Below, piece by piece: positions 11,339 through 29,299 of a stretch of 64,000 bases of DNA. The DNA comes from Psychrobacter sanguinis (GTDB lineage: Bacteria; Pseudomonadota; Gammaproteobacteria; Pseudomonadales; Moraxellaceae). The notes under the pieces were generated by a model. It had not been told where the DNA came from, did not search any database, and saw nothing but the letters and a program-made list of their open reading frames with translations. A program made the translations under genes and the position numbers. Where the stretch lies: positions 1,612,001 to 1,676,000 of the forward strand of contig NZ_CP085990.1 of the NCBI RefSeq assembly GCF_020736705.1, written 5' to 3'. Position 1 is the first letter of the stretch, and each line of letters starts with the position of its first letter.

Positions 11339-11854
11339 ATGAAAACACTCAAACTACGCATCAAAGACAAACATGCAAACCAGCTAAACAAACTAGCTGG
11401 GAGTGTTAACTATGCGTGGAACTATGTTAATGCGTTAAGCTTTGAGCATTTAAGACGCACAGGTAAGTACTTTTCAGCTTATGATTTAAGCCAATACACC
11501 AAAGGTAGCGGTGAGTATTTAGGTCTACACAGCCAAACCTTACAAGCCATTAACGAGACTCATGCTAAATCTCGCAAGCAGTTTAAAAAAGCGAAACTTA
11601 ACTGGCGTACTAATAGACCTGATGCCAAGCGTAAATCATTGGGATGGATGCCTTTTAAGAAATCTGCTATCAAGTATTTGCAAACAAGGCAGACAGGTAA
11701 GAAGGCACTTAAATCAACCATACAGCTATCCTTATCTAAAGGTCAAAAGCTCATCATCGATGTATTCGATAGCTACAACCTAAGCCTATATCAAATTAAC
11801 ACCTTAGAGATAGTACAAGACAGTCGTAATCGTTGGTATGCGTGTATCACCGTT
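11339..11854 (+). pseudogene. tnpB: TnpB (IS605 OrfB), 5' part, cut by an IS4-family insertion
   Basis: The first 172 codons of an IS605-family OrfB/TnpB, the RNA-guided nuclease encoded by IS200/IS605 transposons. Family features are the N-terminal LKLRIKDKHANQL, NYAWNYVNALS and the later DSRNRWYACITV strand that precedes the RuvC domain. The frame is interrupted by the IS at 11855. The missing part is not across this IS but on the opposite strand at 26082-26672, behind the second copy of the same IS. Joining 11339-11854 to 26672-26082 gives 369 codons including the stop, in frame, with the 9-bp ATCACCGTT duplication counted once. This is direct evidence for the inversion described in the findings. 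Confidence 0.9.
11846..11854 (+). repeat. Target-site duplication half (ATCACCGTT)
   Basis: The nine bases before the IS are ATCACCGTT. The IS's own right flank (13038) does not repeat them. Their partner, as reverse complement AACGGTGAT, is at 26673-26681 beside the other IS copy. Confidence 0.9.
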
Positions 11855-13037
11855 CTCTGTACACGACAAAAACAAAAAAGCTGACTAAGGACAAGGCATA
11901 ATAGTAATTTTTCTTACGAACCACACTATGCCAAACCTTAATCAGCTCATAAATATATTATCGCAAAACCTAACCATGAACAAGGCAAGATTGACGTGTT
12001 TAGGCTTAATTACTCTAGCGATAATACAAGTACAAAGTAGTAACCTCAAACAAATAGCAAGAGGATTTGTCAAAGGTAGGACAAACAGTAATTACAGACG
12101 GCTACAACGCTTCTTTGCACAAGTTGACATAGACCAAGACCAGTTAGCCAAATTCATCTATCAACTCTTTGACTTAGACGAAGTCATCATCAGCATAGAC
12201 AGAACCAACTGGAAATGGGGTAAAAAGAACATTAACATCTTTTTGCTCAGCGTTGTTCATCAAGGAATCGCTATTCCCTTATACTGGACACTACTTGATA
12301 AAAAAGGTAACAGCAATAGTAATGAGAGATGTGAGCTCATACAAACGTTCATCAACACCTTTGGCGCAGACAAAATACAGTATGTATTAGCCGATAGAGA
12401 GTTTGTTGGCAAAGAGTGGTTTCAATGGCTAAATAAAGAGCAAATAAAGTTTTGCATTCGCATCAAACACAACACCCTAGTAGCCAATCATCAGGGTAAA
12501 TTGGTACAAATAAAGACATTGTTACGTCATCTATCCCCTCATGAAACGTTTATGTTAGCCAGAGCTGTTCCCGTATATGGCGTTAAAGTTCGTCTATTTG
12601 CAAAGCGTGATACTGACAACGATTATGTCATCATAGCGACCAACAATTTAGATCATACGGATGCTATGGCTCTTTATAGCAGACGCTGGGAGATTGAAAC
12701 CTTGTTTTCTTGTTTTAAAGGACGAGGGTTTAATCTTGAAGATACGCATCTTACACAGTTGGATCGGGTAAGTAAGTTAGTGGCGGTTTGTGCGCTAGCA
12801 TTTTGTTGGTCATATCGCATTGGGATTAAAACTGTACAGCAGCACCCTAAAAGACGAAAGCTTAAGAAACATGGTCGACCTCAGCAAAGTTTGTTTGCTA
12901 TTGGTTTGGATGTTTTGATTGATGGTTTGCGTGAGTATTTCTTTGCTGGCAATCGGCGTGTGTTTGAGGTTCTAATAAGTTATTTGTCTCCTAGTCCACG
13001 ACCTTTGAGACTTTGAGCATTTTTGTCGTGTACAGAG
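11855..13037 (+). mobile_element. IS4-family insertion sequence, copy A (ISAba1-like ends)
   Basis: A 1,183-bp element bounded by perfect inverted ends CTCTGTACACGACAAAAA and its complement. The terminal sequence resembles that of ISAba1, an IS4-family member (IS10 group) that makes 9-bp duplications. It encodes one full transposase. Copy B (26682-27864) has the same length, the opposite orientation and, wherever compared by eye, identical sequence. Left and right flanks here are unrelated (ATCACCGTT against ACATCAGCA), which is abnormal for a simple insertion and is explained by recombination between the copies. Confidence 0.95.
11928..13016 (+). CDS. IS4-family transposase (copy A)
   Basis: A 362-residue DDE transposase. 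Catalytic residues can be placed at SIDRTNWKWG (first Asp, about residue 88), VLADREFVG (second Asp, about 157) and the YREK-like YSRRWEIETLFSCFKGRG (Glu, about 260), followed by FNLEDTHLT. The full length and unbroken frame suggest it is active. The protein is identical in all residues to that of copy B on the opposite strand and clearly related to the frame-shifted copy at 16001-17096. The ATG lies 73 bp inside the left end. Confidence 0.93.
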   Translation: MPNLNQLINILSQNLTMNKARLTCLGLITLAIIQVQSSNLKQIARGFVKGRTNSNYRRLQRFFAQVDIDQDQLAKFIYQLFDLDEVIISIDRTNWKWGKKNINIFLLSVVHQGIAIPLYWTLLDKKGNSNSNERCELIQTFINTFGADKIQYVLADREFVGKEWFQWLNKEQIKFCIRIKHNTLVANHQGKLVQIKTLLRHLSPHETFMLARAVPVYGVKVRLFAKRDTDNDYVIIATNNLDHTDAMALYSRRWEIETLFSCFKGRGFNLEDTHLTQLDRVSKLVAVCALAFCWSYRIGIKTVQQHPKRRKLKKHGRPQQSLFAIGLDVLIDGLREYFFAGNRRVFEVLISYLSPSPRPLRL

Positions 13038-13046
13038 ACATCAGCA
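13038..13046 (-). repeat. Target-site duplication half (TGCTGATGT on the minus strand)
   Basis: The nine bases after the IS read ACATCAGCA, the complement of TGCTGATGT. The matching direct copy is at 27865-27873 beside IS copy B, not beside this copy's left end. Confidence 0.9.
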
Positions 13047-13204
13047 TCTACATAGGTATACACAGCTTCTGCATAGGTACCATCTTGAAAAAAGGCAGTG
13101 GTGTCTTGGCCTGAGCGGTCAAGGCCGGCGGCGTGAGATAAACTAGCTAAGGGTAAGGTTAAAAGAGCAAGCGTAAGCTTAGAGATAGGGAACTTTTGTG
13201 ACAT
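13038..13204 (-). pseudogene. FadL-type outer membrane protein, 5' part, cut by an IS4-family insertion
   Basis: The first 55 codons of a FadL/OmpP1-family outer membrane transporter: a signal peptide (MSQKF, hydrophobic core, cleavage near SHAAG) followed by the AGLDRSGQD plug-start motif shared with the intact paralogue at 14359-15732. GGAGG lies seven bases before the ATG at 13204. The frame runs into the IS end at 13037. Its continuation is at 27865 on the other strand: joining 13204-13047 to 27865-29299 gives 531 codons including the stop, in frame, with TGCTGATGT counted once. Confidence 0.88.
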
Positions 13205-13383
13205 TTGGAATCCTCCATGAAAAATTAATACCCAAATTTCTACTCTCATAGACAACTATGACGAGTTTGAATATTTGGCCATCCTGTGCCAGGAATACGG
13301 TATATTCTAAAATCTATGTCGTTATATTACAAGTGTGTAATACAGCGTATATACTTGTATTAATAATAGTTAATATTTCATAC

Positions 13384-14272
13384 TATAGTCATAGCCCCAT
13401 AAATAAGATACACTGATAAGATGGCATATTCAAAAGACTACAGACAAATGATATTAGACAAGCTTGACGAAGGTTACAGCTATCGAGAGCTTGCCGAAGA
13501 ATATCAAATCAGTACAACGACAATTCAGCGTTGGAAAAAGAACATTGAGCGTAAAGTTTACGTCTATACTGTTTACAAGGTGGATAGCGATCGGCTTAAA
13601 GCAGATGTTGAGCTTTACCCAGATGCTTATCAAATAGAACGAGCAAGACGTCTTAACTGTAGCCAAAGAAGCATCAGTCGTGCACTGAAGCGACTTGGTA
13701 TTATTCAAAAAAAAGACACTGCATCATCCTAAATCAGATGAAGAAAAACGTCAGTTATTCGCTGAGCAGTTAGCCCAGCATGAAAAAGACAACTGTCCTG
13801 TCGTTTACTTAGATGAAAGTGGCTTCAAGGCACATGATTACAGACCTTACGGCTATGCCAAAAAAGGTGAGAAGTGCTTTGGCGAGCATAACTGGCAACT
13901 AAAAAACCAAACCAATGCTATAGGTGCTATTTACAATAATCAGTTATTCGCAGTAGGTCTTTACGACTGTAGTGTTAATAGTGATGTATTCCATAGCTGG
14001 GCTCAGCAACTGTTATTACCACAACTTCCCCTTAATAGTGTGATCGTTATGGATAATGCAACTTTCCATAAGGGCCTTGATATTCAAAAAACCATTGAAG
14101 ATTCAGGACACACTATTCTATGGTTACCGCCTTATAGTCCTGACTTAAACCCTATTGAGCAAACTTGGGCTTGGGTTAAGAAAAAGCGTCAAGATTGGGG
14201 AATAGATTGTATCGATACGTTATTCTTCTATTTTCTTTGGCTGTGTGACTGTTTTTAAGGGCTATGACTATA
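13384..14272 (+). mobile_element. IS630-family element, copy 1
   Basis: Inverted ends TATAGTCATAGCCC (13384-13397) and GGGCTATGACTATA (14259-14272); the outermost TA pairs are probably the TA target duplication of this Tc1/mariner-like family. It encodes orfA and orfB in two frames. Once the inversion is undone it sits between the two fadL-type genes. Confidence 0.88.
13421..14258 (+). CDS. IS630-family transposase, orfA + orfB (copy 1)
   Basis: orfA (13421-13732, 103 aa) is a helix-turn-helix DNA-binding protein: SYRELAEEYQISTTTIQRWKK and a second helix pair RLNCSQRSISRALKRL. orfB (frame open to 14258) carries the DDE_3 catalytic domain: VYLDESGFKAHDYRPYG with the first Asp, VIVMDNATFHK with the second, and PPYSPDLNPIEQTWAW with the final Glu. 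The two frames overlap at an A8G run (13707-13714); orfB lies in the +1 (equivalently -2) frame. A fusion would give a protein of normal IS630 size. The same arrangement in two other copies suggests programmed slippage rather than damage. Confidence 0.88.
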
Positions 14273-14306
14273 AAGCAACCACTCTTTTGGCGATTTCTCA
14301 CAATAC

Positions 14307-14335
14307 AAAAAAAGCAGCCATAAGGCTGCTTTTTT
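14307..14335. terminator. Terminator after the intact fadL-type gene
   Basis: AAAAAAAGCAGCC / GGCTGCTTTTTT hairpin with A and T runs on both sides, 24 bp past the fadL-type stop codon; works in either direction. Confidence 0.88.
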
Positions 14336-14358
14336 ATAATTCGAAAAAAATCAAGTCT

Positions 14359-15732
14359 TTACTTATCTTGATAAGATAGCTTAACACCCAGTGCAAAACC
14401 GTCGTTATCTTCGAAGTTACCTACGATGTTATCGTTAGGGATTTTACCTTTGGCATCACCGAACATTAAGTATTTACCACCCGCTGAGACTGCCCAGTTT
14501 TTATTAAAGTCGTACTTAGCACCTAGACCCACACTATAGTAACCTTCAATTGGACCTAGTGAAGTAACTGGGTTGCCCGCACCACTGTCCCAACCTACTG
14601 TTCCAGATACAGCTAGGTTATCAGCCACACGCTTAGCCAGACCTAGCTCAACCTGCCATTGGTCATCAGCATAATCAACTAAGTTTAGACCTTCAGGATA
14701 AACACGCTTAGTAGATTGGTTGTAAACTGGTGGGGTAATCGCAAAGTCACTCCATGGCACCCAGCGTACTTTAGCGGTTGCTAACGTGGTTGGGTTAATA
14801 CCCGTTTGGAAGTCAAAGTTTACTGATTCTGGTGTAGTCACTTTCATTTTACTAACAGCACTTGATTCCTGACGAAGACGCTCTAGTAGAGGCATTGTTT
14901 CAGCAGCGTCTACGTTATGATCAATTTCAGAGCGGTAAGTTAATGCAGCCTTCAGGGCGATTTCAGGCTTACTGTATTGCAAACCTGCAACCCAACCATA
15001 ATCGGTATCTGGATTAACATTTAAGTTATAGCCTGTCGCAGCTTCATAGCCCATACCACGCAGTTTAACATCAGCTTTTAAGCGCTGAGCGACTGGACCA
15101 CCATAAACTTGAAACTCTTTGTTTTGACCAAACTTCATACCCACTAGACCAGTTAGGCTTTCGGTACGAACTTCAACTTTAGTCGCTTCACCTACAGTAT
15201 TTGCTTCAACTTCAGCAGCCCCTAAAACCGCACCTACCTGTGTTAAAGCGTCAGTTAACTCTTTAGGAGGCTTACGACCTGCAGCGATTTCAGCTTTAAC
15301 AGCTCCTTCAAGTTCACTATATTTCTGTTGCGCCTGAAGAGCATTCTCAAATTTACCACCAGAAATATGATTTACTGATGCATTCACATCACCTTGAGCA
15401 ACAAAGATGTTGTTACCAGAGTAATCAGCAGCGGCACCCCAAGGCTCATCATATAACACACCAATACTGAAAGTATCGTCGATGTCTGTTTTTACACCAT
15501 AGCGGAAGAAGTCATAGTCTTCAGCGATATCCTTGATCTTATTACCACGTACATCTTTACCAGTTACATCGGCATCAATATAGGTGTATACGGTTTCAGC
15601 ATAGGTACCGTCTTGTAAAAAGGCAGAGATATCTTGGCCAGAACGGTCAAGACCAGCAGCAGAAGCAACGCTTGCAACAGATAAAGCAGCAACGGCAGTA
15701 ACAAGAGGTTTGATAATAAAAGTAGAGCGCAT
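14359..15732 (-). CDS. FadL/OmpP1-family outer membrane transporter (intact paralogue)
   Basis: A 457-residue outer membrane beta-barrel of the FadL family, which moves long-chain fatty acids or other hydrophobic compounds across the outer membrane. The signal peptide ends near VASAAG; the mature start AGLDRSGQD is typical. A helical, Ala/Glu/Lys-rich insertion (about residues 105-175) separates the plug from barrel strands. DFFRYGVKTD, VGVLYDEPWGA and the SPITSLGPIEGYY-like strand recur in the second, broken paralogue. The C-terminus ends in a barrel strand, LGVKLSYQDK. An ATG at 15732 with GGAG upstream is preferred to a TTG at 15744. Substrate not determinable. Confidence 0.88.
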   Translation of the reverse strand: MRSTFIIKPLVTAVAALSVASVASAAGLDRSGQDISAFLQDGTYAETVYTYIDADVTGKDVRGNKIKDIAEDYDFFRYGVKTDIDDTFSIGVLYDEPWGAAADYSGNNIFVAQGDVNASVNHISGGKFENALQAQQKYSELEGAVKAEIAAGRKPPKELTDALTQVGAVLGAAEVEANTVGEATKVEVRTESLTGLVGMKFGQNKEFQVYGGPVAQRLKADVKLRGMGYEAATGYNLNVNPDTDYGWVAGLQYSKPEIALKAALTYRSEIDHNVDAAETMPLLERLRQESSAVSKMKVTTPESVNFDFQTGINPTTLATAKVRWVPWSDFAITPPVYNQSTKRVYPEGLNLVDYADDQWQVELGLAKRVADNLAVSGTVGWDSGAGNPVTSLGPIEGYYSVGLGAKYDFNKNWAVSAGGKYLMFGDAKGKIPNDNIVGNFEDNDGFALGVKLSYQDK

Positions 15733-15924
15733 TAACTTCTCCAAAATTCCATTTATAGGATGGGCACTAAGGTTTTATGATTAGGCTTTTCACGAAATGT
15801 GAAATCATAAAACAGAGGGATAGACACTAATTATTGTTGGGTTACATTTCAACCACTAAATAATTGATTACCAGCAATACTACTTAAAGAAGAAATAAAT
15901 TGCAACACTTTGATATATTTATAA

Positions 15925-17116
15925 CTCTGCACACGACAAAAAAAACAAAAAAGTCTATTAAAGCAAAGGCATAATAGTAATTTTTAAGACGAATCAGACC
16001 ATGCCAAACTTTAACAGACTTAGTGAAACTTTAACCCAAAACCTGAGCATGAACAAGGCAAGAATCAATTGTTTGAGCCTAATGATAATAGCCCTGATTA
16101 CTGCTCAAAGCAGTAATCTTAAAAAAAATAGCAAGACACCTTCCTAAGGGTGGCAAGACCGACAGCCACTATCGCAGACTACAGCGATTTTTTGCCGAAG
16201 CGAGGATAGACTACGATCAACTGGCTTTAATGATATATCGACTATTTGGACTAGGCAAAGTCACCTTAACCATTGACCGCACCAACTGGAAATGGGGTAA
16301 AAGTAACCTCAACATCTTTATGCTAGGGGTGGTATATAAAGGGATAGCCATCCCCTTATACTGGCAAATGCTAGATAAGCGAGGTAATACAAACCATCTT
16401 GAACGCTGTGAACTTATTGAGCGGTTTATCAAACAATTTGGCAAAGATAACCTTGAGATGATAGTAGCAGACAGAGAGTTTGTTGGCGAAAAATGGTTTA
16501 ACTGGCTCACCAATAATCACATACCCTTTGCCATACGGATTAAGAAGAACAGTAAAGTTAAGAATCATCATGGCAAGCTGGTACAGATTAAAGAGTTATT
16601 TCGCCATGTTAGCCATCAAGAAACATATCGACATGGGCGAATACTGACTGTCGATGGTTGTTTGGTTCGAGTATTTGCCAAGCGTGATAAAGACTACGGT
16701 TTAGTGATTGTCGCAACCAATCAACTAGAAACAGTGGATGCGATGACAAGCTATGCTAAGCGTTGGGAAATTGAGACTTTATTTGCTTGTCTAAAGGGCC
16801 GTGGCTTTAATCTTGAAGATACCCACTTAACCCATCTTGATCGGGTCAGTAAATTAGTTGCAGTGAACGCCTTAGCATTTTGTTGGGCTTATCATGTCGG
16901 TATTTATAAAGACAAAGATAAGCCGTTAAAACGCAAGTTGAAGGCAAACGCTCGACCTCAAGCCAGTTTGTTTGCGCTTGGCCTGGATGTGTTGATTGAA
17001 GGCCTTCGCTTGGTGTTTTTTAACAATGATAAGACTGTCTTTCGACAGTTAGTTAGCTTTTTACCCCCTAAACCTATGAAAATAGGGTGGGGATGATTTT
17101 TTTGTCGTGTGCAGAG
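15925..17116 (+). mobile_element. IS4-family insertion sequence, copy C (diverged, with intact 9-bp duplication)
   Basis: A 1,192-bp relative of copies A and B with ends CTCTGCACACGACAAAAA and its complement. It is flanked on both sides by TATTTATAA (15916-15924 and 17117-17125), so this insertion has not recombined. The flanks are normal, unlike those of copies A and B, which makes it a useful internal control for the 9-bp duplication rule. Its sequence is clearly diverged from A and B. Confidence 0.93.
16001..17096 (+). pseudogene. IS4-family transposase of copy C, single-base frameshift in an A8 run
   Basis: The frame opens at ATG 16001 (MPNFNRLSETL, aligned with copies A and B) and stops at codon 49. 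At 16121-16128 there is a run of eight A; with seven, the frame continues as KKIARHLPKGG and on to the stop at 17096, giving about 364 residues. The downstream frame keeps all three catalytic positions: TIDRTNWKWG, IVADREFVG and YAKRWEIETLFACLKGRG. Copies A and B have no A-run here. It may be a recent inactivating insertion, or the run may permit transcript slippage that restores some full-length protein. Confidence 0.85.
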
Positions 17117-17165
17117 TATTTATAATTATTTTCTACACAAGATCTTCTGACTTTTCATTAACTAA

Positions 17166-18269
17166 CTGAAGTTACGCAAAGACCTAAACAAACGCTATAC
17201 TACCACCATGAATAAAGACATGATTGACTTATACACAGACTATCAACTCAGTAGCTTTGGTCAAACCACAGCCACAGGCTTATCGGCGATGATGGAGGGT
17301 AGCATCAGTCATGATGCTGTGACCAGATTTTTAACAAATAGCGAGTACACTTCAAAGCATCTATGGCAACAGGTCAAACCGACCATACGTGATATAGAAA
17401 ACGAAGACGGTGTACTGATATTTGATGACACCATACAAGCAAAACCCCATACCAAAGAAAATGAGACAAATTGCTGGCACTATGACCATACGACAAACAC
17501 CGCAGTCAAAGGCATCAACTTACTGAACTTTTTGTACCATTGTGAGGGTGTCTCGATACCAATAGCCTTTCACATTGTCACCAAACCGATTTGCTACAGT
17601 GATATCAGTACTCGAAAAACCAAACGCAAAGCCACGATAACCAAGAATCAGTTGCTAAGAGACATGGTTGATACCGCTTGCCACAACCAAGTTAAGTTCC
17701 GTTATGTGCTGATGGATTCATGGTTTACCAGTAAACAGACATTAAAGCATATTCGCAAAAAAGATAAGCATGTAATCGCAGCCCTTAAATCCAATCGTTT
17801 AATCGCTCTGAATCTACAAGACAAAAAACAGTCTCGTTATCAGCGAATTAATGAGATAGGACTACCAGATAAAAAAACCATGACAGGCTATTTAAAAGAC
17901 TACCCACATGAGGTTGTCTTTATACGCCAAGTCTTTACAAACAAAGACGGTAGTTTAGGTGTGCTATATTTGGTATGTACTGATTCACAACTCCCTGCTG
18001 ATAAGATCATGAGTCTTCATGAAAAACGCTGGGCAATCGAAGTGTTTCATAAGTCACTCAAGCAAAATGCCAGTTTGGCTAAGTCGCCTGCCTATTCTAA
18101 ACGGGCAATGCACAATCATGTGTTTTTATCTATTTGTGCTACGGTTAAGCTTGAATGTTTGAAGTTAACCACTAAATTAAATCATTTCGCACTTAAAGCT
18201 AAACTTCTTGTCGCGGCTTCAAAAGCGGCTTTCGATGAGCTGACTTTGCTTAGGGCTGCGTAACTTCAG
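17166..18269 (+). mobile_element. IS701-like/IS4-superfamily insertion sequence
   Basis: A 1,104-bp element bounded by CTGAAGTTACGCA and TGCGTAACTTCAG, with a possible 7-bp duplication TAACTAA on each side (17159-17165, 18270-18276). It carries one transposase. A 16-bp piece identical to its left end occurs alone at 2192-2207. Confidence 0.85.
17208..18263 (+). CDS. IS701-like DDE transposase
   Basis: A 351-residue transposase with catalytic motifs LIFDDTIQ (first Asp, about residue 72), VLMDSWFTSK (second Asp, about 168) and the YREK-like EKRWAIEVFHKSLKQN (Glu, about 280). The N-terminus with ATGLSAMMEGSISHDAVTRFL is a helix-rich DNA-binding region. The frame is intact and almost fills the element. 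I assign it to IS701 from its N-terminal style; a placement elsewhere in the IS4 superfamily is possible. Confidence 0.82.
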   Translation: MNKDMIDLYTDYQLSSFGQTTATGLSAMMEGSISHDAVTRFLTNSEYTSKHLWQQVKPTIRDIENEDGVLIFDDTIQAKPHTKENETNCWHYDHTTNTAVKGINLLNFLYHCEGVSIPIAFHIVTKPICYSDISTRKTKRKATITKNQLLRDMVDTACHNQVKFRYVLMDSWFTSKQTLKHIRKKDKHVIAALKSNRLIALNLQDKKQSRYQRINEIGLPDKKTMTGYLKDYPHEVVFIRQVFTNKDGSLGVLYLVCTDSQLPADKIMSLHEKRWAIEVFHKSLKQNASLAKSPAYSKRAMHNHVFLSICATVKLECLKLTTKLNHFALKAKLLVAASKAAFDELTLLRAA

Positions 18270-18320
18270 TAACTAACTTAAATCCGCTATGAAGACAGAA
18301 TAAATCCTAAGCTGCGGCTA

Positions 18321-18569
18321 TCAATAGTGTGGTGGTACTTCTGAAGCAGCATCAAAAGGCGCTATGCCTGAGTCACTGATCCTATTTAATTGAGCATACA
18401 TTAGCTGCAATTGACGCTGCATATCTTGAATTTGCTTATCTTGTTTGGTGATCACCTGATCCAAACTATCTACCGTGAGCTCTAAGTAGGCCACGTTAGA
18501 CTGTAAATCGGCTATTTGCTGCTTTAAGTGATGAACACCCTCGCCGGGGTTCTGTGCTGAATTTGACAT
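18321..18569 (-). CDS. slyX: SlyX family protein
   Basis: An 82-residue protein matching SlyX in length, its heptad-rich middle (residues 15-60, HLKQQIADLQSNVAYLELTV as coiled coil) and the characteristic PPHY C-terminus. SlyX is a conserved small cytoplasmic protein of unknown role, often near slyD. No slyD is beside it here. It lies inside the inverted segment, divergent from uup. Confidence 0.85.
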   Translation of the reverse strand: MSNSAQNPGEGVHHLKQQIADLQSNVAYLELTVDSLDQVITKQDKQIQDMQRQLQLMYAQLNRISDSGIAPFDAASEVPPHY

Positions 18570-18779
18570 GGATTTCTTCTAAATATATAGATAAAAGAGG
18601 ACTGGCCCTACCCTTGTACAAAAACCTAATGACTTTAAACTCATGACAATTAAATACGCCAAAAGGGAGGCCAAATACGATGACAGGTTATGATTCGCTG
18701 TCTGCGTGATATACTGTACTCAATTTTAACATGTAGTAGTTAAGAACATAACTTATAAAATAATGGTAATGATACATTT

Positions 18780-20738: not shown

Positions 20739-20840
20739 GTCAGCCAACGCTAATAGCTACCCACAAACCATTCTTTTGGTTATTTTAGTTGCAGCCGGTT
20801 CGTTTAATACAGCCGGCTCTTCTAACTATGGTGATACTCT

Positions 20841-21995
20841 ATGAATGTTCCTATTCCCCCTGCTGATGACCCTAAACAACAAAAACCTAATAAGAGTTAT
20901 GTTAATTCATCAGTACAACATTACACCCCTCAAACAACAGCCAAACCTACTGCGTTAGAGACTCCCTTAACTTCTCAACCGCCTAAACCTGTGACTACTC
21001 TAGAAGGCATGCCAACCATCAGTGAGAACCACAAACAAACCTCAGTGGCTCCCAAAAAACCTTTTGAAATGGCATTTTTGGCCCCTCAATACTGGGGGAT
21101 TTGGCTACTCTTGGCGATGGTATTGCCGTTGATTTATTTACCGCTACGTATACAGTTCTGGATTGGGCGCAAGTTAGGCATTGCCCTTTATCATCTATCC
21201 AAAAGCCGTAGAAAGGATACTTTGGTCAACTTAGCATTGGCATTCCCAGAAAAAGCAGCTGAAGATCGTGAACTTATGGCCAAACAAGTATTCGTGAATC
21301 AAGGTATCGGAGTCTTTGAAACACTCTGTGCTTGGTTTCGTCCTGATGTCTTCACTCGCACTGTGTCTATTTCAGGATTACAGCATCTGATAGAGGCCAA
21401 AAAACAGGGCAAAGCGGTACTGTTATTGGGTGGTCATTATACGATGTTAGATTTAGGCGGTCGTTTATTTACTCAATTCTCTGCGGTCGATTGTGTCTAT
21501 CGTCCCCAAAACAACAAGTTATTAGATTGGTTTATTTATAATGGTCGTCGTCATATTTTTGATGAGCAAATTGACCATCATAATATGCGTAAGTTAGTAA
21601 GCCGTATTAGAGAGTCTCGTGTGGTTTGGTACTCACCTGATCAAGACTATGGTCTAAAACATGGGGTTATGGCCCCGTTTTTTGGGGTACCTGCCGCTAC
21701 GGTTACTGCGCCGAGACGATTGGCACGCATGGGAGATAAGTCTAATCCTCTAGCAGTAATGGCATTACATACTTATAGACAAACACCTGACAATCTGCCT
21801 CGAGGTAAACGTCCGCATTATCACTTGAGCATCACGCCAGTCATAGACAACTACCCTACTAATAATGAAGTGGCGGATGCGACGCGTATAAATGAGATAT
21901 TAGAAGGTCTAATTCGTATCGACCCCACTCAGTGGATGTGGTTTCATAGACGCTATAAGCATCAAGAAACAGGCCGTAATACTTATTATAAATAG
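20841..21995 (+). CDS. Lipid A biosynthesis acyltransferase, LpxL/LpxM type
   Basis: A 384-residue inner membrane acyltransferase of the HtrB/LpxL family. Residues 1-75 are a Pro/Thr/Lys-rich extension not typical of E. coli LpxL; a membrane helix follows (WGIWLLLAMVLPLIYLPL). The catalytic H-x4-D is GGHYTMLD (about residue 200), followed by VYRPQNNKLLDWFI and the SPDQDYG segment, both conserved in the family. It would add a secondary acyl chain to Kdo2-lipid A. LpxL versus LpxM cannot be separated by eye. It starts 102 bp after uup on the same strand. Confidence 0.85.
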   Translation: MNVPIPPADDPKQQKPNKSYVNSSVQHYTPQTTAKPTALETPLTSQPPKPVTTLEGMPTISENHKQTSVAPKKPFEMAFLAPQYWGIWLLLAMVLPLIYLPLRIQFWIGRKLGIALYHLSKSRRKDTLVNLALAFPEKAAEDRELMAKQVFVNQGIGVFETLCAWFRPDVFTRTVSISGLQHLIEAKKQGKAVLLLGGHYTMLDLGGRLFTQFSAVDCVYRPQNNKLLDWFIYNGRRHIFDEQIDHHNMRKLVSRIRESRVVWYSPDQDYGLKHGVMAPFFGVPAATVTAPRRLARMGDKSNPLAVMALHTYRQTPDNLPRGKRPHYHLSITPVIDNYPTNNEVADATRINEILEGLIRIDPTQWMWFHRRYKHQETGRNTYYK

Positions 21996-22100
21996 TAGTT
22001 TGATTGTTTAAATTAATTGGTTTAAGTTGAATTATTTAGCGAGTTCTGTTTACTATGATTTGGGTTGTGAAAACCATAAAAAAGCCGCCCTCATTGAGGG

Positions 22101-22120
22101 TAATACCAGTCAGTTAAGGC
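22101..22120 (+). repeat. Solo end of the IS4-group element
   Basis: TAATACCAGTCAGTTAAGGC differs by one base from the left end of the IS4-group element at 24231. E. coli IS4 ends have the same style. The bases just outside also resemble each other (AAAAAAG-CGCCCT), suggesting a duplicated or deleted IS4-group insertion next to the LpxL-type gene. Confidence 0.5.
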
Positions 22121-22141
22121 AAAAACTCAATAAAAGTAATA

Positions 22142-22174
22142 AAATAGCCCATCTAATAAGTAGATGGGCTATTT
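22142..22174. terminator. Hairpin with terminator character between the LpxL-type gene and the IS1-like element
   Basis: AAATAGCCCATCT / AGATGGGCTATTT stem with an AATAAGT loop, T-rich on the plus-strand side, directly against the IS1-like end at 22175. It may end either the LpxL-type transcript or the IS1-like transcript. Confidence 0.6.
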
Positions 22175-22888
22175 GGTGGTGGTTCAAAAAGTAGGCTAAC
22201 ATTAGACATACCCATGATTGATGTAAAAGAAAGCTAAATCAAAGGCTTTAAAGTGATTTTCCAGTTTTTTAGAAAAGTTACAACTTCGTCTAAATGCTCG
22301 CCTTACTCGATGTCTGATAGTGCAATTATTACCTTCAATGCCGACCGTGAAAAACTTGCCAATGACTTGGGTAAAGCCCTTAAAACCAGTAACAAAGCTA
22401 TCCCAGGTATCACTAGCGATTTTAGCACAACTTACGCCTAGCGCTTGCAGTTTAGCTTTAAGCTTTTTGACAGTGTTAAGGTCTCGTTTTCCCCACACAT
22501 AGGCAACAATTTCACCTGTTTCACGGTGATAGGCATAAATTAGCCATTGTTTGTTGGTCTTTTTACCTACGAATGTCCAAAGCTCATCGACTTCAAGACA
22601 GTCGTATTGCGTTTGCTTGGGGGTTATTTGGTAGTGACACTTTTTTAGGGTGGCTAGTACTTTGCCTTTGCTGATTCTCTCAACGCAAGCGATGTCTTTT
22701 ATGCCACTGCCTCGAACCATAAGATGTCGTATTTTGCTATCTTTTTGGGAGTGACAGCCTTGGTACGTTAAGGCATGGTCGCCAATAAACTGCCGCCTGC
22801 AGTCTTTGCATTTATAGTTTTGTTTACCTTAGCTTTTGAAACCATTTTTCTTTATATTGTTACTTAGACAGGCTGGGCATTTGATATA
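22175..22888 (-). mobile_element. IS1-family element, truncated by IS630 copy 2
   Basis: The terminal repeat GGTGGTGGTTCAAAAAGTAG begins at 22175. The other end is lost: the IS630 copy starts at 22889 within the 5' part of the transposase gene. The same terminal sequence caps the short repeat at 25558-25689. Confidence 0.75.
22202..22888 (-). pseudogene. IS1-family transposase, 5' truncated and with an internal stop
   Basis: A single-frame IS1-type transposase. From the truncated 5' end it reads KCPACLSNN (first zinc-ribbon pair), then a TAA at 22829-22831 where a sense codon is expected, then NYKCKDCRRQF (second Cys pair). The catalytic part (22202-22720) is intact: CLEVDELWTFVGKK, IASDTWDSF and IRHRVRRAFRRSCNFSK, which hold the DDE residues and the typical IS1 closing helix. 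Start codon and N-terminus are missing, so no active enzyme is expected. Confidence 0.8.
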
Positions 22889-23778
22889 TATAGTGAAAGA
22901 ACTTAAAAAATGTTACAAAGCCAAAGAAAATAAAAGAACAAAGTATCGATACACTGCAGACGCCAGTCTTTACGTTTACGCTTGATCCAAGCCCAGGCTT
23001 TTTCGATGGGATTTAAATCTGGGCTATAAGGTGGTAGCCATAAAATACAGTGTCCTGCATCATTAATAAGCTCTTGAATATCAAGTCTTTTATGGAAGGT
23101 GGCGTTGTCCATAACAACAACGCTGTTCTTAGGGAGGTTTGGCAGTAGCAATTGTGTCACCCAGCTATAGAAGACGTCGGCATTGACATTACAATCATAA
23201 AGGCCAATGGCGAATAGTTGATTATTGTGAATAGCACCGATAGCATTGGTTTGATTCTTTAGTTGCCAGTTATAACTGCCAAAGCACGGTTTGCCTTTAT
23301 AGGAATAGCCGTGTGGTCGGTTCTCATGAGACTTAAAACCACTTTCGTCTAAATAAATAATAGCTCTATCGCTTTCTTCAAACTCAGACAGTTGTTCAAG
23401 AAATAGACGCCTTAGATCGTCATCTGCTTTAGGGTGATTTAGTGTCTTTTTTTTGAGTAATGCCGAGACGCTTGAGAGCTTTTCCTATGCCTCTGTCGCT
23501 ACAGTTAAATCGCCTTGCTCGTTCATAATGATAGTCATCAGGATAGGCTTTGACATCTGCTATAAGGGCATCGTTGTCTATCTTACTAGGGATTCGTTTG
23601 CATTGTTTGCGCTCAAGCCGTTTCTTCCAGTTTTGTATATTGGTTGGGCTAATTTGATACTCTTCGGCTAATTCCCGAAAGCTGTAGCCTTCGTCAAGTT
23701 TGCTAAGAATCATTTGTCGGTAGTCTTTTGAATATGCCCTAAGTTTTAGTGGACCACTTTATTCGTTCTTTGACTATA
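22889..23778 (-). mobile_element. IS630-family element, copy 2
   Basis: Ends TATAGTGAAAGAAC (22889) and GTTCTTTGACTATA (to 23778), one mismatch apart as inverted repeats. Left of it is a truncated IS1-family element, right of it the remnant of a different gene, so the copy bridges two unrelated broken sequences, as after an IS-mediated deletion or exchange. Confidence 0.85.
22903..23713 (-). CDS. IS630-family transposase, orfA + orfB (copy 2)
   Basis: orfA is open from 23713 to 23429; orfB continues in the +1 frame to 22903 after the A8G run (23447-23454 on the plus strand as T8). orfA has the helix-turn-helix SFRELAEEYQISPTNIQNWKK; orfB has YLDESGFKSHENRP, VVMDNATFHK and PPYSPDLNPIEKAWAW. 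At the codon aligned with the orfA start of copies 1 and 3 this copy has AGG (23738-23740) instead of ATG, so translation would need the internal ATG at 23713, removing nine residues before the first helix. It may be inactive. Confidence 0.8.
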
Positions 23779-24174
23779 GATTTCAATAATGATACAGGGC
23801 AATCGCACTACAAATCAATTTTAGCCACATTTTAATTAATTATTGACCTTTTGCAGATGTTGTTAGCTGCCAATAATAAAAATACAAGATATATAAAAGG
23901 ATTTTAGTTATATTCCCTAACTTTTTACTTGCTTTAATTTAGCAAATCTAATTTAAAACGAGTATTTTCTATAGTGCGATTGCCCTGAATAATGACATCG
24001 GCTATAGCGATGTTATTGAACTCTCATCTTCTTTATTCCAAAGCGCTATGGACTTAGCGAGCTCATCCCATTCAATCAAAGAGCGATGTGATTGTTAGCC
24101 TATCTTCGACCGAATATCTAACCGTTTTAAACTCAACGATAGATGATGTACTTAGCTCCTCAGTTATTATTTAA
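23779..24174 (+). pseudogene. C-terminal remnant of a secreted repeat-type protein, split by a MITE and frameshifted
   Basis: Skipping the MITE at 23795-23987, the plus strand reads DFNNDIGYSDVIELSSSLFQ and on to a stop; shifting frame near 24060-24075 it continues as DVIVSLSSTEYLTVLNSTI and ends SSSVII with TAA at 24172-24174. This Asp/Ser-rich style resembles the C-terminal secretion region of RTX or other calcium-binding secreted proteins of this group. The 5' part is lost at the IS630 copy. The frame change and MITE show long-term decay. Which gene it came from is open; the lipase-like fragment at 25690-26050 is one candidate. Confidence 0.5.
23795..23987. mobile_element. MITE-like repeat with CAGGGCAATCGCACTA ends
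   Basis: A 193-bp, AT-rich element without coding capacity. Its 16-bp terminal inverted repeat is CAGGGCAATCGCACTA at both ends. It interrupts the repeat-protein remnant; flanks AATAATGATA and AATAATGACA agree at nine of ten positions, consistent with a target duplication. The first 109 bp recur at 29421-29529. Confidence 0.8.
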
Positions 24175-24230
24175 ACAATAATACGTTAAACAGAAGATAA
24201 AATAGCTATAAAAAAGACGCCCTTAATGAG

Positions 24231-25557
24231 TAATGCCAGTCAGTTAAGGCTGACTGGTATTTTTTTTGGGATATTTTTGTGGTTTACCCTTAACCACCCT
24301 CGGGCAAGATCGCTTTCTGCGTTCAGGAATGACAAACAACTTTCCTTCCTCTAAAAGTGTATCTAACAACTTAGGGAAGAGTCCTGCAGCCTGTAAAGGT
24401 GCAAACCGTAACAGATCAACAATCGTAATAGACGCCATATGAAAGCTAATTCGTAGAGGGCTAACGTTAGCTCTAAGGGCCATATATCGCATCAAACGTC
24501 TTATTAGATTATAAGCAATCATGAGCGCCCAGAATTCTTGTAAAACAAGCTGTGGCAGCTTACTTCTTAGCAACAGCCCCTGCTGTAGATCAGAGTTAAT
24601 CTCTCGATACGCCTTCTCAATCTCCCAACGCTGCAAGTAAAGCTGTGCCACTTTATCCTTAGTAAATCGTTTATCATCTATTAAAGAGGTGATGTATCGT
24701 CTTGTCTTACCCTCATAACGACACTCAATTAATCGAGCTTGCCAAGTATCGGGTAGGTTTGGATTTTTCTTTTGAGCTTGGGGAGAGACGGGCATTTGTA
24801 TTAAGTAGTCCCCTTCGCTGAAGGTTTCAATCACAGTGTAACGCAGATTATCTTTAGCCCGCATAAGCCAGTGACTGTTTGGATAGGCTTGTTGCCAACT
24901 AATCAGTAGGTCTGCTGAGAAATAGGCTCTATCAAAGAGCGTAATGCTATTGTCTTGAATATTTAGCTGACGGGCTAAGGCGATCTCTCCTTGACCCATA
25001 TTTCCAAGGGTTGTGTCAATGATCTCATGCGTGTCAGTATTGATCAGACATACCGAACGCATTTGGGGATAGGGCGCCTCTTTAGTTCTGCCTTTGCTTG
25101 AGCTAAATTGCTGAAGGTTCTCATCAGTGTATGGGAGTGAGTATACGACGCCATCTACAGCGTGGACGCTAAGTCCCATGAAGTCTTGCTGCTGGGCTCG
25201 TGATTCTGTTTGGTAGTGAGCACTTAGTTGATGAAATAGCTGCTTTAGAGGCTCATGCCCGAGGCGTTGTCTTGCTTGTACCACAGCACTGGGTACGCAG
25301 GCCTGTGAGTCTATATTAAGCCGCATCTGCTCTGTGATGTACCAAATTGAACGGTTACGATATAAAGCTGTGCCGATGACTATTCAAACAACGTGTTCGG
25401 CAGGTAGCTTACGTCTTCTAATGCTCGCTTTGCCGGTATACTCTAAAGCCTGCTGTATCCACTCAGGGTCTATTAATTCACTAAATTGTTCTAGAGTGTC
25501 TGTGATCCTTTTATGCGTCTCATTAATAGCGTCTTGTAGTCTCATAGTAAAATAGCC
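24231..25557 (-). mobile_element. IS4-group element, right end missing
   Basis: The left end TAATGCCAGTCAGTTAAGGC at 24231 resembles the ends of E. coli IS4. A hairpin CCAGTCA / TGACTGG follows inside it. On the right only 12 bp remain beyond the transposase start before a different repeat begins at 25558, so the matching end has been lost. Confidence 0.7.
24244..25545 (-). pseudogene. IS4-group transposase with a nonsense codon
   Basis: From ATG 25545 the frame reads [20 protein letters not shown] and on through LPAEHVV, then TGA at 25384-25386, then IVIGTALYRNRSIWYITEQ and continues unbroken to 24244 (434 codons in all). The TGA most likely replaced TGG. The catalytic domain is present: VHAVDGVVYSLP (first Asp), ITLFDRAYFSADLL (second Asp) and LQRWEIEKAYREIN (Glu, YREK-type). 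The remaining 360-codon frame lacks the N-terminal domain. Together with the lost right end, this copy is probably dead. Confidence 0.85.
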
Positions 25558-25689
25558 GGTGGTGGTTCAAAAAGTAGGCTGATTAAAATTTGAACAATTT
25601 TTGAAGGTTTGAAAGCCATATAGAACCAGAGAACTTAGCATAGACTTCCTATTGACTTTTAGCGTCAGCCTACTTTTTAGAACACCACC
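25558..25689. mobile_element. Short IS1-related MITE-like repeat
   Basis: A 132-bp element bounded by GGTGGTGGTTCAAAAAGTAG and the complement of GGTGGTGTTCTAAAAAGTAG. The same end caps the IS1-family element at 22175. It has no coding capacity, so it looks like a non-autonomous derivative mobilised by an IS1-family transposase. It truncates the lipase-like gene on its right. Confidence 0.7.
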
Positions 25690-26050
25690 TAAAATTAATC
25701 CGAACCAGTTCTTCTGCTTCATTATATTGACCAAATATCTTAGCTTGCGGACCAGGTACAGCCGTTCCAGTGTATAGGCTTGGAATAGTAAAATAGCCTA
25801 CTTTATCGACCATACTATCACTGACGCCAAAGTCTACTGGTTTCAGTTCTTTCCAACCCTCTGGAATACTTACATTGATACTTGTGGGAAATAGGTTACC
25901 GCTAATTTGCCCTAATACATTAAGAGCATCCGCACCAGGTATGAAGTCAAAAAAATTGTATGCATTGGTAAAAGCGGAAAGACGGCTGGTATCTTCTACT
26001 AATTTAGCCGCTTCTTGTTGAGTGTAGTTTTTATAATCGAACATACCCAT
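25690..26050 (-). pseudogene. Lipase-like protein, N-terminal fragment
   Basis: About 120 residues starting MGMFDYKNYTQQEAAKLVED, open until the MITE-like repeat at 25689; the last five codons of the open frame (WCSKK) already belong to the repeat. It resembles the N-terminus of large lipase or polyurethanase-type secreted enzymes in Moraxellaceae (IPEGWKELKP, YFTIPSLYTG, ELVRINF before the hydrolase core), judged from memory. No signal peptide, as expected for a type I-secreted enzyme. The catalytic core is absent. The IS605-type right end lies directly upstream and could have displaced its promoter. Confidence 0.55.
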
Positions 26051-26074
26051 ACACTTATATCCTTTTGACCTCCT

Positions 26075-26094
26075 CCCCTCGCTAAACCGAGGGG
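26075..26094 (-). repeat. Right-end hairpin of the IS200/IS605-type element
   Basis: CCCCTCG / CGAGGGG stem with a CTAAAC loop, overlapping the tnpB stop codon at 26082-26084. In IS200/IS605 elements this region is both the transposition right end and the 3' part of the guide (omega) RNA. The element probably ends near 26066 in a TCAA-type sequence, just upstream of the lipase-like start. Confidence 0.6.
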
Positions 26095-26672
26095 ATTCCT
26101 ACCGCTAGACGGTCAAGCCCGACCGCGAGGATGTTCTTAGCGGCATTGATATCTCTATCATGCCATGTGCCACACTCAGCACACCTCCATCCTCTTATTC
26201 GCAAGCCTGCTCTACCTTTCGGACTACTGTCACTTATTTTAAGGCAGTACGAGCAGGTCTGGGTAGTGTAACTTTCATTTACCATCTCAAACTGACAACC
26301 TGCATACTTGCATTTATATTCCAGTTGTCGTTTAAGCTCAAACCATCCTGCATCGTATGTCGATTTAGCTAGCTTGTTTTTTTTATTGGTAAATGAGCGT
26401 GATTTAACATCACCAACCACAATTAAAGCATTATCTTGAACAAGCTTGGTGGTGAATTTATGAATTAAGTCTAACCTTGTATTTTTTATTTTTGCGTGGA
26501 TTGCTTTGACACGATTTTTATTGCTAGCACGCTGGGCGATAGCAAGCTTTTTAGCCCATTTTTGGGTCTGCTTAATAGTAAGTTTATCACCCATTGAGGT
26601 AGTAGCAGACTCTTTTAAGCCCAAATCAATTCCAATGCTGCCCTTACCACTTACTTGCTTAGGAAAGTCTTT
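26082..26672 (-). pseudogene. tnpB: TnpB (IS605 OrfB), 3' part, on the opposite strand from its 5' part
   Basis: The C-terminal 196 residues of TnpB. RuvC motif I is SIGIDLGLKES (Asp), the zinc finger is CSYC and CAEC, and RuvC motif III is HDRDINAAKNIL (Asp). Motif II, normally an Ile-x-Glu-Asp strand, reads ALIVVGDVKSRS with Gly at the expected Glu, followed by the conserved KSTYDAGWFELKRQLEYK helix. The fragment completes the 5' part at 11339 across the two IS copies. It retains the right-end hairpin. Residues before KDFPKQ (ITV) are encoded by the 9-bp duplication. Confidence 0.88.
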
Positions 26673-26681
26673 AACGGTGAT
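26673..26681 (-). repeat. Target-site duplication half (ATCACCGTT on the minus strand)
   Basis: AACGGTGAT, the complement of ATCACCGTT at 11846-11854. It codes for ITV in tnpB on both sides, so the insertion was in frame at a 9-bp duplication. Confidence 0.9.
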
Positions 26682-27864
26682 CTCTGTACACGACAAAAAT
26701 GCTCAAAGTCTCAAAGGTCGTGGACTAGGAGACAAATAACTTATTAGAACCTCAAACACACGCCGATTGCCAGCAAAGAAATACTCACGCAAACCATCAA
26801 TCAAAACATCCAAACCAATAGCAAACAAACTTTGCTGAGGTCGACCATGTTTCTTAAGCTTTCGTCTTTTAGGGTGCTGCTGTACAGTTTTAATCCCAAT
26901 GCGATATGACCAACAAAATGCTAGCGCACAAACCGCCACTAACTTACTTACCCGATCCAACTGTGTAAGATGCGTATCTTCAAGATTAAACCCTCGTCCT
27001 TTAAAACAAGAAAACAAGGTTTCAATCTCCCAGCGTCTGCTATAAAGAGCCATAGCATCCGTATGATCTAAATTGTTGGTCGCTATGATGACATAATCGT
27101 TGTCAGTATCACGCTTTGCAAATAGACGAACTTTAACGCCATATACGGGAACAGCTCTGGCTAACATAAACGTTTCATGAGGGGATAGATGACGTAACAA
27201 TGTCTTTATTTGTACCAATTTACCCTGATGATTGGCTACTAGGGTGTTGTGTTTGATGCGAATGCAAAACTTTATTTGCTCTTTATTTAGCCATTGAAAC
27301 CACTCTTTGCCAACAAACTCTCTATCGGCTAATACATACTGTATTTTGTCTGCGCCAAAGGTGTTGATGAACGTTTGTATGAGCTCACATCTCTCATTAC
27401 TATTGCTGTTACCTTTTTTATCAAGTAGTGTCCAGTATAAGGGAATAGCGATTCCTTGATGAACAACGCTGAGCAAAAAGATGTTAATGTTCTTTTTACC
27501 CCATTTCCAGTTGGTTCTGTCTATGCTGATGATGACTTCGTCTAAGTCAAAGAGTTGATAGATGAATTTGGCTAACTGGTCTTGGTCTATGTCAACTTGT
27601 GCAAAGAAGCGTTGTAGCCGTCTGTAATTACTGTTTGTCCTACCTTTGACAAATCCTCTTGCTATTTGTTTGAGGTTACTACTTTGTACTTGTATTATCG
27701 CTAGAGTAATTAAGCCTAAACACGTCAATCTTGCCTTGTTCATGGTTAGGTTTTGCGATAATATATTTATGAGCTGATTAAGGTTTGGCATAGTGTGGTT
27801 CGTAAGAAAAATTACTATTATGCCTTGTCCTTAGTCAGCTTTTTTGTTTTTGTCGTGTACAGAG
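26682..27864 (-). mobile_element. IS4-family insertion sequence, copy B (ISAba1-like ends)
   Basis: A 1,183-bp element with the same CTCTGTACACGACAAAAA ends as copy A, reversed in orientation. Flanks are AACGGTGAT (left) and TGCTGATGT (right), which do not match each other but match copy A's flanks crosswise. The transposase frame is intact. Confidence 0.95.
26703..27791 (-). CDS. IS4-family transposase (copy B)
   Basis: A 362-residue DDE transposase, residue for residue the same as copy A's product, with SIDRTNWKWG, VLADREFVG and YSRRWEIETLF catalytic segments. With no visible difference from copy A, the two elements are recent or have been homogenised by recombination, which keeps inverted-repeat exchange efficient. 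Confidence 0.93.
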   Translation of the reverse strand: MPNLNQLINILSQNLTMNKARLTCLGLITLAIIQVQSSNLKQIARGFVKGRTNSNYRRLQRFFAQVDIDQDQLAKFIYQLFDLDEVIISIDRTNWKWGKKNINIFLLSVVHQGIAIPLYWTLLDKKGNSNSNERCELIQTFINTFGADKIQYVLADREFVGKEWFQWLNKEQIKFCIRIKHNTLVANHQGKLVQIKTLLRHLSPHETFMLARAVPVYGVKVRLFAKRDTDNDYVIIATNNLDHTDAMALYSRRWEIETLFSCFKGRGFNLEDTHLTQLDRVSKLVAVCALAFCWSYRIGIKTVQQHPKRRKLKKHGRPQQSLFAIGLDVLIDGLREYFFAGNRRVFEVLISYLSPSPRPLRL

Positions 27865-27873
27865 TGCTGATGT
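27865..27873 (+). repeat. Target-site duplication half (TGCTGATGT)
   Basis: Direct partner of the complement at 13038-13046; codes for part of ADV in the fadL-type gene. Confidence 0.9.
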
Positions 27874-29299
27874 TACTGGTGTTGATAACAAAGGCAATAA
27901 AACCGGTGATATTGCTGAAGCTTATGACTTCTTCCGCTATGGTGTAAAAACCGATGTGAATGATAGATTCAGTGTTGGTGTATTATATGATGAGCCATGG
28001 GGAGCTGCTGCTAAATATAGAGGTGATAACGAGTTTACAGGGGTAGCAGGTGATGTTGGTGTAGGTGCTATTTTAGGGGTTGCCGAAGGTGCTATAGCAA
28101 AAACACAGGGTAAAATTAATGACTTTAACAAACAAATAGAGGCTATTGATAAAGAGCTAGAAGATGAAGATTTAACTCCTGAACGGGGAGGCGTTTTAGC
28201 TCTTAACAAGTTCGTTTTAGAGAAGGGTATAGGAGGTCTTGAAGAAGCAGTTGATAGATTTGAGACACTGGGCAAGCCAGAAAACGCTACACTTGAGGAA
28301 TATAATGCTTTAATTGAAACGACTCGTGGGAAGATTGAAGAATTAGAAGGGACGCTGGAACAGATGGCACCTTTCTTACCCGAGGAAACTAAGCAGCTAG
28401 CACAGGGTCTGCTAGATGGTAATAAGGCAGATTTAGCACAAACTGAAGGTGCACGTGATGCGGTTGCGAATCTTCTAAGTATTGATGAAGCAACGAATGT
28501 AGAAGTTCGCTCTAACACGCTATCTTTGATTGGTGGTGCGAAGTTTGGTGCAAACAATCAGTTTCAGATTTATGGTGGTCCAGTAGCGCAGCGCTTAAAA
28601 GCAGATGTAAAGTTACGTGGTAACGCCTATCAAGGCGCTACAGGATATAACGCCCATGTTGCCCCAGATATTGATTATGGTTATCTGTTAGGTTTTTCTT
28701 ATAGCAAGCCAGAAATTGCTCTAAAAGCGGCATTAACTTATCGTTCTGAGATTGATCACTCTTTAGCAGCTTATGAGAACTTCCCTGCACTTGCAATCAA
28801 AGGTCAAAATCCAGAAAGCTATAATAAATTTGAAGTAACAACGCCGGAGTCTGTAAACTTTGATTTCCAAACGGGTATCAACCCAACCACATTAGCAACG
28901 GCCAAAGTTCGCTGGGTACCATGGAGTGACTTTAAGATTTCACCACCAGTATATAGTGGTGCAGCCCAAGTACCTCTAGTTGACTATAGTGATGACCAAT
29001 GGGTTGTAGAACTGGGCTTAGGTAAGCGTCTAGCAGATAATTTAGCGGTATCAGGATCAATCGGCTGGGATAGTGGTGCCGGTGATCCAACATCATCATT
29101 AGGTCCTATTGAGGGCTACTACAGTGTTGGCTTGGGTGCTAAATATGATGTGACTAAGAACTGGGCAGTATCTGCAGGTGGTAAATACTTATGGTTCGGT
29201 GATGCAAAAGGTTCACTACCTACTGGTGATATCGTCTCTAACTTCGAAGATAACGAAGGTTACATTGTAGGTGTTAAGCTGTCTTACCAAGACAAATAA
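27865..29299 (+). pseudogene. FadL-type outer membrane protein, 3' part (second paralogue)
   Basis: The remaining 475 codons of the broken fadL-type gene. From the duplication TGCTGATGT the frame reads ADVTGVDNKGNK, then DFFRYGVKTDVND and VGVLYDEPWGA as in the intact paralogue. A helical, Glu/Lys/Leu-rich insertion (27.99-28.49 kb) is longer than and different from the equivalent insertion in paralogue 1, while the barrel that follows (RLKADVKLRG, IALKAALTYRSEIDH, LGPIEGYYSVGLGAKYD) is nearly the same. It ends VGVKLSYQDK. Its 5' 55 codons and promoter are at 13038-13204 on the other strand, so no normal protein can be made in the present arrangement. Confidence 0.88.

Follow-up and report, generated by a model that had tools for sequence, protein, structure and literature searches.

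The stretch of DNA considered here, referred to as the window, comprises 64,000 nucleotides of the Psychrobacter sanguinis contig NZ_CP085990.1 (positions 1,612,001 to 1,676,000), and positions are counted from its first letter unless another genome or contig is named. Within it lies a segment of 13,644 bp (13038..26681), recognised by the orientation of its genes compared with relatives, which has very probably been inverted in this one Psychrobacter lineage and which is bounded by two identical, opposite copies, A and B, of an insertion sequence (IS). Homologous recombination between two earlier insertions, to which we attach a probability of about one half, is the reading of its origin that is followed here, and direct inversion by transposition is weighed against it.

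Structure of the inversion

IS copy A occupies 11855..13037 on the forward strand and is 1183 bp long, with 18-bp terminal inverted repeats (CTCTGTACACGACAAAAA) and a transposase gene at 11928-13016. Copy B, also of 1183 bp, is found at 26682..27864 on the reverse strand and is 100% identical to copy A (1183/1183 positions, 0 mismatches). An earlier reading of the same sequence, the first-pass annotation, had placed two equally long, opposite IS4-family copies here, and their coordinates, orientation and identity are confirmed to the base. The flanks read ATCACCGTT/copy A/ACATCAGCA and AACGGTGAT/copy B/TGCTGATGT, such that the 9-bp target repeats are exchanged between the two copies. Target repeat a (11846..11854, forward strand), on the left of A, has its reverse complement on the left of B at 26673-26681, and target repeat b (13038..13046, forward strand), on the right of A, has its reverse complement on the right of B at 27865-27873, exactly where a crosswise pairing had been described. 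Two random 9-mers of the window match as reverse complements with P = 7.6e-6, and the probability for both sides is about 6e-11, in agreement with the earlier judgement that chance was very unlikely.

Both insertions split a gene. The 5' part of tnpB (11339..11854, forward strand), which is without a Pfam match of its own, is cut by copy A, and the 3' part is located at 26082..26681 on the reverse strand (NF040570, 178 bits against a cut-off of 100). Three intact relatives, of which two come from contig C4 of the source genome and the third, L055, from P. piechaudii, bridge the break and run continuously from the first part into 26681-26082, with an overlap of exactly 9 bp in each, which is precisely what a 9-bp target duplication demands. 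The second gene, fadL1, is of the fadL type. Its 5' part (13038..13204, reverse strand) lies within the inverted segment and matches positions 19687-19521 of the relative G038, and its 3' part (27865..29299, forward strand) scores 29.1 bits with PF03349, just under the cut-off of 29.7. The intact fadL1 of G038 is continuous across the break, with the 3' part matching from 19529 and thus again a 9-bp overlap, and adjoins there a second fadL-type gene, fadL2. A fadL2 paralogue in P. pasteurii also gives a 9-bp overlap at the fadL break. The gene that follows fadL2 in P. pasteurii (L112 2864-4300) matches the 5' fadL piece to base 138 only and the 3' piece in its later parts only, and is silent on the join; the fadL2 paralogue of G038 aligns partially at the break and speaks neither for nor against the fadL1 join. 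Since intact relatives span the breaks, both genes were whole before insertion, and their halves are now 14.8 kb apart. Rejoined, tnpB has 369 codons with its sole stop at the end, which reproduces the in-frame repair reported previously. Read from 13249, the rejoined fadL gene has 546 codons and ends at its first stop. A start 15 codons further in frame, at the ATG at 13204, leaves by arithmetic 531 codons, consistent with the earlier figure.

Gene order in related genomes

The direction of the change was read from lpxL, inside the segment, and trpS, outside it. Best hits to both were compared in 80 genomes of the genus, including the source genome, in a sample spread evenly over a larger group. 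In 75 of the 79 other Psychrobacter genomes lpxL lies within 5 kb upstream of trpS and shares its strand; the other four are uninformative, having the two hits on different contigs, and in one of them (G021) the lpxL match is a distant acyltransferase only. The source genome is alone among the 80 in carrying lpxL and trpS on opposite strands, 9.9 kb apart. A detailed comparison covered regions from nine relatives, of which G035 and G038 display the order trpS, small gene, lpxL, uup, fadL2, putP. Relative to the window, the block from the small gene to fadL2 is turned in these two genomes, and the outside genes, trpS and scpA with respect to putP and lysR (and leuC in G035), are oriented to one another just as they are in the window. 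The small gene is a conserved neighbour of trpS, identified by this gene-order comparison (25670..26050, reverse strand), and is now about 14.8 kb away from it. A position next to trpS, on the opposite strand, is what it has in G035, G038, G023, G062 and G005, and its first part has the same position in G056. In G069 the small gene and trpS fall on separate contigs, and the compared stretches of G078 and G021 contain no match to it.

Because the relatives keep lpxL and trpS in same-strand order, the inversion is assigned to the source genome as a derived state, through the comparison of gene order that the first-pass annotation had proposed. Its statement that core genes changed orientation also stands: the segment with slyX, uup and lpxL has turned, and the lpxL block is opposite to that of the relatives.

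The insertion sequence and its copies

The section of an account of the IS4 family that deals with the IS10 subgroup (PMC2266710) characterises it by a YREK signature, CT ends and 9-bp target repeats, and describes IS4-family elements as cut-and-paste. The transposase of copy A has 362 amino acids in a single frame, matches the IS4 model NF033591 with 264.6 bits (cut-off 152) and contains the complete YREK motif at residue 250 (YSRRWEIETLFSCFK). The ends begin with CT (CTCTGTACACG), and all four lone chromosomal copies of the element (L002, L003, L004 and L007) are flanked by 9-bp direct repeats. By motif, ends, repeats and the IS4-type model, the element, termed IS A, fits the IS10 subgroup as described there, differing in being slightly short, since its 1183 bp are 17 below the 1200-1350 bp that the account gives as a typical range and not as a limit.

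DNA like IS A was detected in only 2 of 94 genomes of the genus, namely the source genome and, as a 91% partial copy, G062 (E-value limit 1e-300, completeness at least 99, at most four candidates scored per genome), and a search of 19 genomes at the default limit returned only relatives at 68%, in 1 of the 19. IS copies of 99% identity are located beside sul2 on plasmids from Psychrobacter sp. WB2 and van23A (L113, L114, L115). A stretch resembling the first 133 bp of the IS (96%) occurs in 15 of the best 25 of 74 PLSDB records, all 15 of which are from Escherichia, Salmonella or Shigella.

Nine full-length sequences in the source genome match IS A at 98.6% or more; one is on contig C2 and one is a duplicate at the overlapping contig end (17727 = 3307286), which leaves seven distinct chromosomal copies, or eight when one that is interrupted by an IS630-type element is counted. 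The pair counts given below set aside partial copies, the copies on C2 and C4, and L006 and L009, which repeat L005 and L008 at the opposite end of the contig. The four chromosomal copies that are not alone form two close inverted pairs, both with exchanged repeats. The second of these, pair 2, consists of C1:17727-18909 and C1:23933-26002 (L005 and L008), in opposite orientation, with GGAAACATT and GTTTAAAAT exchanged and 5.0 kb between the copies. The pair 2 interval (G000:C1:17727-26002; L111) includes an alcohol dehydrogenase-like gene, named by eye, and one of its IS copies is interrupted by the IS630-type element. In a comparison with 10 genomes, a lipoprotein-like gene that neighbours pair 2 was found in one, and the alcohol dehydrogenase-like gene had a close relative (99%) in one and distant matches in all 10, so that it is the exchanged repeats by themselves that argue for a second inversion.

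A related IS, copy C (15925..17116, forward strand, 1192 bp), is found inside the inverted segment between the direct repeats TATTTATAA, and its transposase frame appears, by eye, to be interrupted. Copy C had been offered as a control with normal duplications. The direct 9-bp repeats are present, but in its best BLAST stretch to IS A it is only 71% identical, making it a different IS, and it forms the end of a mobile unit, so that it serves as a partial control; as a control of the same IS it was rejected and replaced by a tally of all fetched copies, in which the four lone chromosomal copies of IS A, all with direct repeats, are the better control. In the C family, direct repeats flank 16 of 19 fetched copies, or 17 of 20 with copy C of the window, the exceptions being L020 (the end of the unit on C2), L022 and L024. 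The flanks of L022 (G000:C1:3030904-3031980) and L024 (on C4) match neither each other nor those of other fetched copies, possibly as a result of adjacent deletions.

Recombination or transposition

If homologous recombination was responsible, an IS10-type copy would have inserted into the chromosomal tnpB and another, opposite, into the fadL-type gene 13.6 kb away, with 9 bp duplicated at each site, and recombination between both copies would then have turned the segment, leaving both genes split and slyX, uup, lpxL and fadL2 reversed. The recombination step and its timing are what we infer here from IS copies, exchanged repeats, intact relatives and an ancestral order that can be seen directly. 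The cut-and-paste character of the IS4 family, as given in the account cited above, and the simple direct repeats around four of four lone copies are in favour of this route. In the part of the work on Bordetella pertussis that concerns IS481 (PMC4888882), inversions are attributed to recombination between inverted IS copies. Both cases have in common a segment bounded by inverted copies, whereas the segment in the window is small (13.6 kb), the element is of the IS10 type and the target repeats reveal both insertion sites. The pertinent part of a paper on the Galileo inversion 2z3 of Drosophila buzzatii (PMC2775673) likewise has two opposite copies with exchanged target repeats, where chimeric copies settled the matter for recombination; the copies here are identical.

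Several observations weigh against recombination. The identity of A and B, which are also identical to L002 and L003, hides any mosaic that a crossover would leave, and such a mosaic is what was decisive in the Galileo text cited. None of 66 inverted pairs among the 17 chromosomal C-family copies is exchanged, including an uncrossed pair 8 kb apart, and hence recombination between IS copies is not rampant in the source genome. When eight copies were placed at random, two disjoint inverted pairs within 15 kb arose in 0.4% of runs (0.004, post hoc) and at least one such pair in 12%, in a test that was picked after seeing the data, with small numbers, an IS-rich contig start and direct pairs that may have been lost by deletion. 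Finally, swapping the halves of pair 2 left the tree no shorter, although this test is weak, other swaps giving 0 to -2 steps.

It is quite possible, instead, that transposition inverted the segment in one step. A single IS copy, in either tnpB or fadL, would have attacked the other site on its own chromosome, or, after replication, the ends of two sister copies would have been used jointly, and the product would have contained at once a second, inverted copy, exchanged 9-bp repeats and an inverted segment. According to the legend of Fig. 6 in a review of the IS6 family (PMC7986276), intramolecular transposition in trans gives the same end structure, and the legend of Figure S1 in the Galileo paper (PMC2775673) derives an inversion with two copies from copies on sister chromatids or homologues. 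When cut-and-paste transposition using the ends of two sister copies is worked through, it too should give this product. The window sequence alone is therefore no proof of recombination. The first-pass annotation had called the inversion proven. The inversion and, through the relatives, its derived state are supported, but recombination between two earlier insertions is not proven, given that the legend in PMC7986276 has one-step transposition leaving the same structure; nor need the two 9-bp duplications be independent, as had been claimed, when one-step transposition in trans as drawn there yields both. The suggestion that the flip may be reversible and mixed in a culture is likewise not supported in the form in which it was put.

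The second exchanged pair of the same IS also speaks for transposition. Exchanged pairs amount to 2 of 15 inverted pairs for IS A against 0 of 66 for the C family (Fisher p = 0.032, the pairs sharing copies and so not being independent), and, with the random-placement value of 0.004, two close exchanged pairs favour a local process, on statistics that are post hoc, small and open to the same loss of close direct pairs. On the other side, the review treats the one-step route for replicative IS6-type elements, whereas the IS4 family is described as cut-and-paste (PMC7986276, PMC2266710). The replicative transposition in trans of IS26 and other IS6-type elements, as set out in that legend, thus has the final structure with exchanged flanks in common with the window, where the IS carries a cut-and-paste IS4 signature. 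IS26 inversions and ISAba1 9-bp repeats also figure in a portion of PMC10434200. Moreover, the copies of pair 2 have diverged: L005 and L008 differ from each other at 22 variable columns, but L005 at only 14 from copy A of the window and L008 at 19 from the WB2 copy, so that by raw differences they are not each other's nearest copies. Only 44% of bootstraps group them as sisters, and a tree without that grouping is equally long. That a cut-and-paste IS10-type element can invert DNA locally in one step while duplicating itself, and often enough to have produced two scars (13.6 kb and 5.0 kb) with only eight chromosomal copies in the genome, is put forward only tentatively. If true, exchanged target repeats would be no sign of recombination for this class of IS.

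An assembly artefact, in which the 1183-bp inverted repeats would have been wrongly resolved and the true orientation of the segment would be the ancestral one, is improbable. A perfect inverted repeat that is unspanned by reads gives exactly such exchanged repeats, and the ends of C1 overlap untrimmed, with 19 mismatches and 42 gap positions over 12.8 kb. Against this, C1 contains all five 16S genes found, with spacings of 6-7 kb among three of them, 34 matches to IS A and related elements have been assigned to places in 4 contigs, and pair 2 has the same flanks in its two versions, one at each end of the contig, over the reach of the second (L009 is cut by the contig end). The placement of the 16S genes and of the IS matches suggests reads far longer than 1.2 kb, and, with the indel differences between the contig ends, points indirectly to a long-read assembly able to span a 1.2-kb repeat. 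The overlap of the C1 ends (L053, L054) extends over about 25 kb by the offset of matching copies, and a direct alignment of 12.8 kb of it gave 99.5%. Roughly the first 16 kb of C1 contain a tandem repeat of about 2.43 kb, and three 16S genes within 15 kb (G000:C1:1196283-1211204) probably represent tandem ribosomal RNA operons. Chance resemblance, or independent insertions without an inversion, can be dismissed on the 9-mer odds for both sides and the contrary gene order of the relatives.

Genes of the segment and the unit shared with contig C2

The slyX, uup and LpxL-type genes attributed to the segment by the earlier annotation are all present, with Uup and LpxL falling below the cut-offs of their best NCBIfam models. 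The slyX gene is at 18321..18569 on the reverse strand (PF04102, 63 bits, cut-off 30). It is followed on the forward strand by a uup-like ABC-F ATPase gene (18780..20738; NF050005, 797 bits, under the cut-off of 900, and synteny) and a gene for a lipid A acyltransferase of the lpxL/htrB type (20841..21995; PF03279, 215.8 bits, cut-off 22.3; TIGR02207, 276 bits, under the cut-off of 297.8). The region 22202-25326 holds further mobile genes or remnants, comprising IS1-type, IS630-type and another IS4-type transposase.

The left part of the segment belongs, together with copy A, to a unit of 5262 bp (11855..17116, forward strand) with the order IS A, fadL1 stub, IS630 type, fadL2, copy C, which is also present on contig C2 (32,179 bp), between the 9-bp repeats TGGTATTTT. 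There, at G000:C2:25266-30530, the identity is 100% over an aligned stretch of 5265 bp. The passenger fadL2 (14359..15744, reverse strand; PF03349, 37.6 bits, cut-off 29.7) shares 95% identity with the fadL2 of G005, which is situated there between uup and another fadL. As the outer flanks of the chromosomal unit are unlike each other, copy C keeps its own repeats and G005 has fadL2 at this site, movement from the chromosome to C2 would be the natural reading. The ends of the IS A and copy C types are identical at 17 of 18 positions, and such near-identical ends could let one transposase use both. The arrangement suggests a putative hybrid composite transposon, with two different IS types as its ends and a fadL-type gene as cargo. 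Contig C2 itself is probably a plasmid, judging by its sequence: about half of it (L029, 16,100 of 32,179 bases) matches 206 records of known plasmids, none over more than 80% in one place, and bases 11636-16100 of this half have an identical counterpart in plasmid DNA that is annotated with tet(H).

Implications

This case is a new example of a known process, the inversion of DNA between IS copies. It provides a clean, base-exact instance of IS elements reordering core genes, for which the ancestral order is available in relatives, and its interest is increased by the second exchanged pair and by the unit shared with C2. One IS has two such scars in this genome, and a related IS, with 66 chromosomal inverted pairs, has none. 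Whether recombination or transposition itself turned the segment is not proven, as the second flip in the same genome leaves both in play. The case is hence both a warning and a test case, since exchanged target repeats can be taken for a sign of recombination although a one-step route leaves the same scar.

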